Below, piece after piece: positions 58,416-60,550 of a stretch of 64,000 bases of DNA (position 1 is the stretch's first letter; every line of letters begins with the position of its first letter). Under the pieces are notes generated by a model. The model was not told where the DNA came from. It saw nothing but the letters and a program-made list of their open reading frames with translations, and did no database searches. Origin of the DNA: Roseimicrobium sp. ORNL1 (GTDB lineage: Bacteria > Verrucomicrobiota > Verrucomicrobiia > Verrucomicrobiales > Verrucomicrobiaceae); contig NZ_CP049143.1 of NCBI RefSeq assembly GCF_011044495.1, positions 3,906,001-3,970,000 on the forward strand, written 5' to 3'. A program made the translations under genes and the position numbers.

Positions 58416-60224
58416 ATGGCCGCACAATTGTTTCCCTCTCCCTCCACGGTCTCACATCTGGTCTGCACGCTCACCCTGGCGACCAGCTTCTTTGTCAGTC
58501 CGATGATTCAGGCCATTGAGCATCCTACCGGCGGAACCACCTTGCAGGATGGCTCGACGCTGGAGGCGTGGGTGGGAAAGGAAGTGGGCACCGCCGAGCC
58601 CTTGGAAGGCGGAGGAAAGCGGCTCGTAGTGAGCCAGCCCGTGCCGGCGAAATCATACTCGGCACTTCTCACCACACCGTGCGGCGCGAGCCTGCAAAAA
58701 GAAGAGCCCCTCCTCGTGGTGGTAAAGGCACGCTCCGCAGGTGCAACGCCGGAGATGGGGGCGATGGTGGTAAAGCTGCAGATGAAAGCAGCCCCTTACC
58801 AAGCACTGGCGGACACGACGGAGATTCCCGTGCCGCCCACCTGGACAGACCTGCCCGTGACGCTCGTGCCCCGGGGTGATATCCCACCCGGAGACATCGT
58901 GGTGCAACTGCTGTGCGGCCACAAAAAGCAGACACTGGAGGTACAGTCCGTGCGGGTGGTCAAGTACCCCACCGGGACTGTCACCGCTGGATTCCCCCGC
59001 ATCAAACGCACCTACATTGGACGCGAGGCAGATGCCCCTTGGAGGAAAGCCGCCTTGGAGCGCATCGAGAAGCACCGGAAGGCAGAACTTTCCCTGGCAC
59101 TCACAAACTCCGAGGGCGCGGCTTTGTCCAACACGGAAGTCCATCTCAAGCTGCGCCGCCATGCGTTTGGCTTCGGCTCCGCCGTGACGGCGAAGCATCT
59201 CTGCGGAACCAGCGCGGATGATGCGCGCTACCGGGAGATTGTGGATCGGCTCTTCAGCATTGTGGTGTTTGAGAATGATCTGAAGGATGGAAATTGGGAG
59301 CCCTTCTTCGACGATGGACGGAAGGAGAAGCGCAATGCCGACCTGGAGCAGAGCTTTGCCTGGCTCGGCGAACGGCACATCCGCGTGCGCGGACACTACC
59401 TCATGCAGGTGGCTACGCCCTTCAACTTCGATGGAGTGAAGGACAACCAGGCCATTCATGACCGTGTGCTGGCCAGTGTGCGCGAGCGTTTGACGTTTGT
59501 GAAAGATCGCGTGTGCGAGTGGGATGTGATCAATCATCCCATCGCGTGGAGCGGTGCGGACATGCTGAACAAGCGACCGGGACTGGAGAAGCTTGATGAA
59601 GAAATCTTCCAGCTGGCGCGCACCCAGACGCAACTGCCCTTCTTTGTGAACGAGGACCAGGTGTTCCGCCCGGGACCGCAGCATGATGACACCTTCACCT
59701 ACATCCAGCGCCTGCAGGCGGAGGGTCTCGCAGTACAGGGGCTCGGTAATCAAGCCCACTTCGATGAGAGCTATCTCCCCTCTCCCACGCATCTCCTGGA
59801 AGTTACCGATCACTTCCAGAAGCTCGTGAAGCAGCAGTCCATCACTGAATATGACATCGTCACGACGAATGATGACGAGCTGGCGGCGGACTACACGCGG
59901 GATGTGTTGATCGCGACCTTCAGTCATCCTGCGTACACCAGCTTCCTCCTGTGGGGATTCTGGGAGGGCTCCCACTGGAAACCTGAGGCGGCCTCATGGA
60001 ATCTTGACTGGACCCTCAAGAAGCGCGGTGAAGTGCTGGAGGAATGGATTGGAAAAAGGTGGCAAACCAAAGTCACCCTGAAGACGGATGCGGAAGGCAG
60101 GCTGCACTGGCGTGGCTTCCCCGGCTGGTATGAAGTGACCGTGAAAGGCTCAAAGACAAAGGACGTCGAAGCCTCTGCTGAGGGTACGTCGGTCAAGGTG
60201 AGGATGGAAGCCTCTCCACGCTAG
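58416..60224 (+). CDS. Secreted GH10-like protein with altered acid/base position
   Basis: 602 residues from ATG 58416; the frame is open 36 codons upstream without signal character. A long signal or anchor segment (VCTLTLATSFFVSPMIQA) precedes a beta-rich domain (about 35-190) of carbohydrate-binding-module type, then the GH10 barrel from about 240. The GH10 blocks are present in order: FGSAVTAKHL, VFENDLKDGNWEPF, HIRVRGHYL, VCEWDVINHPIAW, GLGNQAHFD, ITEYDIVTTNDDELAADYTRDVLIATFSHPAYTSFLLWGFWEGSHW. The nucleophile Glu in ITEYDI (59847-59849) is kept, but the acid/base Glu of the usual DVVNE is His (59535-59537). It may be an inactive binder or use another residue. Confidence 0.87.
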   Translation: MAAQLFPSPSTVSHLVCTLTLATSFFVSPMIQAIEHPTGGTTLQDGSTLEAWVGKEVGTAEPLEGGGKRLVVSQPVPAKSYSALLTTPCGASLQKEEPLLVVVKARSAGATPEMGAMVVKLQMKAAPYQALADTTEIPVPPTWTDLPVTLVPRGDIPPGDIVVQLLCGHKKQTLEVQSVRVVKYPTGTVTAGFPRIKRTYIGREADAPWRKAALERIEKHRKAELSLALTNSEGAALSNTEVHLKLRRHAFGFGSAVTAKHLCGTSADDARYREIVDRLFSIVVFENDLKDGNWEPFFDDGRKEKRNADLEQSFAWLGERHIRVRGHYLMQVATPFNFDGVKDNQAIHDRVLASVRERLTFVKDRVCEWDVINHPIAWSGADMLNKRPGLEKLDEEIFQLARTQTQLPFFVNEDQVFRPGPQHDDTFTYIQRLQAEGLAVQGLGNQAHFDESYLPSPTHLLEVTDHFQKLVKQQSITEYDIVTTNDDELAADYTRDVLIATFSHPAYTSFLLWGFWEGSHWKPEAASWNLDWTLKKRGEVLEEWIGKRWQTKVTLKTDAEGRLHWRGFPGWYEVTVKGSKTKDVEASAEGTSVKVRMEASPR

Positions 60225-60304: not shown

Positions 60305-60550
60305 GCCCTGAAGGGGCACAAGAGCAAAGCCCAGGGTTAGGGAGCCTCGGCGACCGACACCCTGGGTTGATGAGAAAAGATGCTCGACCCTGAAGGGGTC
60401 GCGGAGAGGGAGGCAATCCTCTGACGCGTGACATGCTTCTTGTGACGGCTCCTCCACCCCTTCAGGGTGGGATGCATTTGTGTACACCACCCAGGGTGTC
60501 GGTCGCTAAGGCTCTCTAACCCTGGGCTGGCCTCCTGCAGCCCTTCAGGC
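60305..60550. repeat. Inverted-repeat element with two nearly identical 95-nt arms
   Basis: The 425-bp gap after the GH10 gene holds a long palindrome: the left arm (60305-60400, from GCCCTGAAGGGGC to GACCCTGAAGGGGTC) and the right arm (about 60455-60550) match in reverse complement over most of their length, including the stretches AAGCCCAGGGTTAG, GCGACCGACACCCTGGGT and CCCTGAAGG. Each arm is itself flanked by CCCTGAAGG-type palindromes. A 55-nt spacer lies between. It should form a strong hairpin or is a small mobile element. No ORF in it. Confidence 0.8.

Follow-up and report, generated by a model that had tools for sequence, protein, structure and literature searches.

Histidine in place of the acid/base glutamate is conserved across a divergent clade of GH10-like proteins

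To our knowledge, few glycosidase families have been studied as thoroughly as GH10, in which both catalytic glutamates are taken to be invariant. A gene in the window (the whole stretch of 64,000 nucleotides of Roseimicrobium sp. ORNL1 that was analysed) raises the question of what such a protein can still do when one of the two has been replaced. An earlier note, made from the letters of the DNA, had read its product as a GH10-like protein that keeps the nucleophile Glu in ITEYDI but carries His (WDVINH) at the acid/base position of WDVxNE, and had supposed that hydrolysis is usually lost with such a change.

The closest solved relatives of the window protein, found with phmmer (E = 2e-35), are the XynA xylanase pair 7d88 and 7d89, the latter being, by its title, the inactivated E182A/E280A mutant of the former. 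In the alignment, WDVINH lies against WDVNNE in 7d88 and WDVNNA in 7d89, and ITEYD against VTEYD and VTAYD, respectively; because the two Glu-to-Ala columns of this mutagenised homologue coincide exactly with His374 and Glu478, the register is fixed. The canonical acid/base Glu is thus absent from the window protein, where His374 falls in the column of E182A, and the nucleophile is present in its TE-x-D motif (Glu478, aligned with Glu280 of 7d88) together with the His-Asp relay (His448 and Asp480), in which the role of His448 as partner of the nucleophile is one that we take to be established for GH10. Both residue assignments of the earlier note therefore stand.

The earlier note was right about the GH10 architecture as well. 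Pfam GH10 (PF00331) matches residues 250–525 with an E-value of 1.3e-22 and a score of 80.9 bits, against a cut-off of 22.1, and an AlphaFold2 model of the window protein, built from 49 input sequences (the window protein and its loci; pLDDT 88.8, pTM 0.83), superimposes as a (beta/alpha)8 barrel of the GH10 type on 7d88 (Z-score 40.3, 356 residues, rmsd 2.9, 28% identity), and this match extends to the C-terminal part. The beta-rich N-terminal domain noticed earlier is, as modelled, a CBM4-like jelly roll: modelled alone it reached a pLDDT of 95.4, the model matched the CBM4 modules of a xylanase and of a laminarinase with a Z-score of 13.7 (VIA-align), and its profile gave a weak match to the CBM4 chain 1k42 (E = 6e-4). 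In the Pfam scan of the whole protein GH10 was the sole family listed, CBM4 being absent from the list. Residues 1–30 are hydrophobic, the structure model gives them low confidence, and the N termini of orthologues are typical Met-Lys-hydrophobic-Ala leaders, so that a signal peptide, and hence secretion, is probable for the window protein. The layout of the gene is given in Table 1. Just 3' of the gene lies a 61-nucleotide inverted repeat (window positions 60307–60367 and 60489–60549; 84% complementary, arms 121 nucleotides apart); an exact search of the whole genome with a guessed pattern for its core gave no match.

Table 1. Features of the His-type gene in window coordinates, and two haloarchaeal relatives in the coordinates of their own plasmid records.
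Feature	Position	Strand	Basis or remark
Whole gene, 602 aa + stop	58416..60224	+	ATG start; translated ORF, Pfam, model
Probable signal peptide, residues 1–33	58416..58514	+	hydrophobic stretch; low-pLDDT helix; orthologue leaders
CBM4-like jelly-roll domain, residues 34–200	58515..59015	+	domain model, structure match, profile match
GH10 TIM barrel, about residues 245–550	59148..60065	+	Pfam PF00331; 7d88 structure match
Small C-terminal beta domain, about residues 551–600	60066..60215	+	in 7d88 too
His374 (CAT), acid/base position, Glu in GH10 xylanases	59535..59537	+	aligned with E182A site of 7d89
Asn412-Glu413 (Asn-Asp in many GH10)	59649..59654	+	Glu413, candidate partner of His374
His448, nucleophile partner	59757..59759	+	33/33 in clade
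Glu478 nucleophile (GAA, 59847–59849) and Asp480 of Glu-His-Asp relay	59847..59855	+	Glu478 aligned with E280 of 7d88
L244, Halorussus vallis plasmid	NZ_CP100002.1, about 79178–81253		EWDMHNHP
L245, Halocatena marina plasmid	NZ_CP109982.1, 85813–87135		EWDVINHP

The earlier note had pointed to the conservation of the His among relatives as a check, and this was examined in two stages. A first set of 50 relatives was fetched from bacterial genomes; in it, all relatives of at least 40% identity that covered the site had His, as did a Lentisphaerae-labelled and a Spirochaetales-labelled MAG, and relatives from planctomycete- and Bryobacterales-labelled MAGs had Glu. The set was then enlarged by searches of the window's family and phylum, a spirochaete phylum, a planctomycete phylum and plasmids, and clustering below 75% identity left 33 rows with His and 89 with Glu. 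His occupies position 374 in 33/33 rows of the clade and in 0/89 outside it, where Glu is found in 89/89. Being conserved across the whole of a divergent clade, the His lies far beyond chance. Invariant in the His rows, where present, are H374, H327, E286, D370, N412, H448, D480, W513 and W516 (H448, D480, H327, W513 and N412 each in 33/33); N373 is found in 32 of the 33, as is the nucleophile E478. One member, L031, has Asp at the nucleophile. The –1 subsite residues retained in the clade are those of xylan/glucan-type GH10. Within residues 195–590, H374 is the sole proton donor (His, Lys, Tyr, Cys or Arg) that the clade has acquired and that its relatives rarely have, and over the same residues we found no acid that is fixed in the clade and missing outside; at D288, part of an END motif common in both types, the acid fraction rises from 0.52 to 0.88 in the clade. 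Together with the 7d88/7d89 columns, by which no alternative Glu can be aligned with the acid/base position, the lack of a clade-specific acid rules out misalignment. The gene family is under purifying selection, with a median dN/dS of about 0.12 (pairwise, for pairs of 75–97% identity in the first set, mostly of the His clade), and this value and the clade-wide conservation exclude decay of a single gene.

How often the replacement arose was judged from trees from which column 374, and later columns 412–414 as well, had been omitted. Without haloarchaeal rows, all His rows fell on one branch, with SH-aLRT values of 99 in the first tree and 96 in the second, and in a more careful tree of 62 rows, likewise without the haloarchaea, the branch had bootstrap and SH-aLRT values of 99/96, a single change sufficing in 98% of the bootstrap trees (the bootstrap was not fully settled). 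With the haloarchaeal rows included, the His rows still formed one group, but the support fell to 88; here L244 and L245 grouped inside the His branch with L240, a member from the planctomycete phylum. These trees favour a single origin with wide spread and argue against repeated independent Glu-to-His changes, although the placement of the pair L221/L223 and of the haloarchaea is less sure. The clade spans genomes of Verrucomicrobiota, of the spirochaete phylum and of the planctomycete phylum; that it extends to haloarchaeal plasmids is less well supported. The two haloarchaeal members are annotated as endo-1,4-beta-xylanases, yet have His at the acid/base site; the GH10 proteins of other haloarchaeal plasmids (L246–L249) have Glu. 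Presence among close relatives is patchy, since the gene is absent from a 99% complete genome of the window's genus (G061). On contig 20 of G616, two different His-type genes (L220 and L223) stand in tandem at 76079–79692, one of which retains the Asn-Asp-Tyr motif and is a member of the His pair that branches first. A xylanase gene on a Haliscomenobacter plasmid (L243; NC_015513.1, 29749–31808) is annotated as two neighbouring coding sequences, which are probably the parts of a single, interrupted Glu-type gene.

Loss of the canonical acid/base residue, together with the attached CBM4-like domain and the isolated position of the gene in its neighbourhood, in a genome in which we found no GH43, might point to a pseudoenzyme: a secreted glycan binder whose GH10 cleft serves as the binding site and in which His374 is a binding contact that transfers no proton. 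We consider this unlikely. A lectin would not need the nucleophile and relay to be kept as strictly as they are, and His is the only replacement that the site has accepted. Moreover, relatives that do look dead have lost both catalytic residues: L181 has Ala for the acid/base residue and reads ITAFQ at the nucleophile, and L235 and L228 have VAD/TALG and VSD/IDLA, respectively. These three, which lie on the Glu side, look like true pseudoenzymes, and the His clade is their opposite, with one residue exchanged for a single fixed alternative and the nucleophile kept. The strictness of the His, the equal constraint on nucleophile and relay, and the joint loss of both residues in the dead-looking relatives favour a functional replacement. 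Of the earlier note's interpretation, the residue call thus holds and the supposed loss of hydrolysis is weakened; the binding or transferase roles that it also offered, or a role with an external nucleophile, may still apply.

Since the rest of the catalytic machinery has been kept, the window protein is probably still an enzyme, with an altered mechanism. The reading that we prefer, by a modest degree of confidence, is that of a secreted retaining beta-glycosidase or transglycosidase with a CBM4-like module, in which His374 would act as the acid/base. A beta-linked sugar would be cleaved or transferred by double displacement: Glu478, supported by the His448-Asp480 relay, would attack as the nucleophile, His374 would protonate the leaving group in place of the usual Glu, and the same His would then activate the acceptor, be it water, a sugar or a small anion. 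A nearby carboxylate may tune His374 in a dyad, for which Glu413 is a candidate and Asp370 another. Position 413 is Glu in 31 of the 33 His rows (outside the clade, Asp in 52 and Glu in 37); because the earliest-branching His pair, L221/L223, has Asp there, a dyad with Glu413 would not be universal. Support comes by analogy: GH117 is described as having a His general acid backed by Asp, the same has been proposed of GH3 NagZ and of GH156 (PMC11574756), and crystals with Michaelis complexes and a covalent intermediate are given for an engineered GH10 enzyme, N127S/E128H, in Table 1 of PMC5811086.

The genomic context offers little guidance to the substrate. The genome of 7.96 Mb, in one contig, encodes a xylose isomerase and has this gene as its single convincing GH10; a second candidate, a match of 24.2 bits, has a WNEP motif and seems to belong to a different clan-A family that merely cross-matches. 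No neighbouring gene was found to be common to the window and its orthologues, and the neighbours of distant members of the clade vary: a GH10-esterase (L200), a GH30 (L205) and a GH66-like protein (L198). The attempt to derive function from gene neighbourhood was abandoned for these two reasons. L196 and L197 adjoin 3-keto-disaccharide hydrolases, with sulfatases as well at L196 and none at L197 among the genes scanned, possibly marking an unusual glycan pathway. Such neighbours, and the retained nucleophile, would suit an activated or anionic aglycone (aryl, acyl, sulfated or uronic acid), for which help from an acid is unnecessary and a neutral or positive His would avoid repelling the anion; plant myrosinase, with Gln at the comparable position, is a parallel. 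Yet the neighbourhoods differ among members, the window gene has no such neighbours, and without proton transfer there would be no need to keep a titratable His fixed at the site, so that we regard this explanation as distinctly improbable.

We think it very unlikely that the protein is a glycoside phosphorylase or dedicated transglycosidase in which His lets phosphate or another anion reach the glycosyl-enzyme, as has been argued for GH3 enzymes of the NagZ type. In its favour, Macdonald (2015), as cited in PMC11574756, is said to have linked the His acid/base of GH3 to phosphorolysis. However, the window protein is probably secreted, and phosphorolysis would be unusual there; moreover, a comparison of His with Glu rows found no clade-specific gain of an Arg or Lys as a possible phosphate ligand.

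The deep His clade is a natural experiment on an acid/base swap in a retaining glycosidase, and its connection with glycosidases and phosphorylases that rely on His can be tested. The clade is apparently a widespread and undescribed branch of secreted GH10-like proteins; the open-access literature yielded no account of natural His variants of GH10, subscription papers being outside the scope of that search and priority not being established. More tentatively, and as a possibility rather than an expectation, the clade may be a cross-domain GH10 subfamily in which His has naturally taken over from the carboxylate acid/base and serves not plain hydrolysis of xylan but another reaction, such as transglycosylation, phosphorolysis or anionic-glycan cleavage. 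The engineered E128H xylanase would then have a counterpart in nature, and the subfamily would give rise to wrong 'endo-1,4-beta-xylanase' annotations. That label, carried by at least two haloarchaeal His members, in any case advises caution with automatic annotation.

Among known systems, XynA (7d88; mutant 7d89) resembles the window protein in its GH10 barrel, C-terminal beta part, nucleophile and –1 subsite, but has Glu where the window protein has His374 and lacks the additional N-terminal CBM4-like domain. That domain shares its jelly-roll fold with the CBM4-2 of Rhodothermus marinus Xyn10A and the CBM4 of laminarinase Lam16A, although at only about 10–13% identity. In the GH3 beta-N-acetylglucosaminidases of the NagZ type and in GH117 (His-Asp acid), His replaces the carboxylate acid as it does in the clade (PMC11574756), but these are unrelated families or folds, and the partner in the clade's putative dyad is a guess. 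The engineered N127S/E128H xylanase of Streptomyces olivaceoviridis E-86 (2D20, 2D22 and 2D24; the triple mutant with T82A is 5GQD and 5GQE), like the clade, has His at the acid/base site of a GH10 barrel and an intact nucleophile. It is a laboratory mutant, however, with a Ser-His pair, whereas the natural clade has Asn-His; the Ser-His pair occurs naturally only in L140, as WDAISH.
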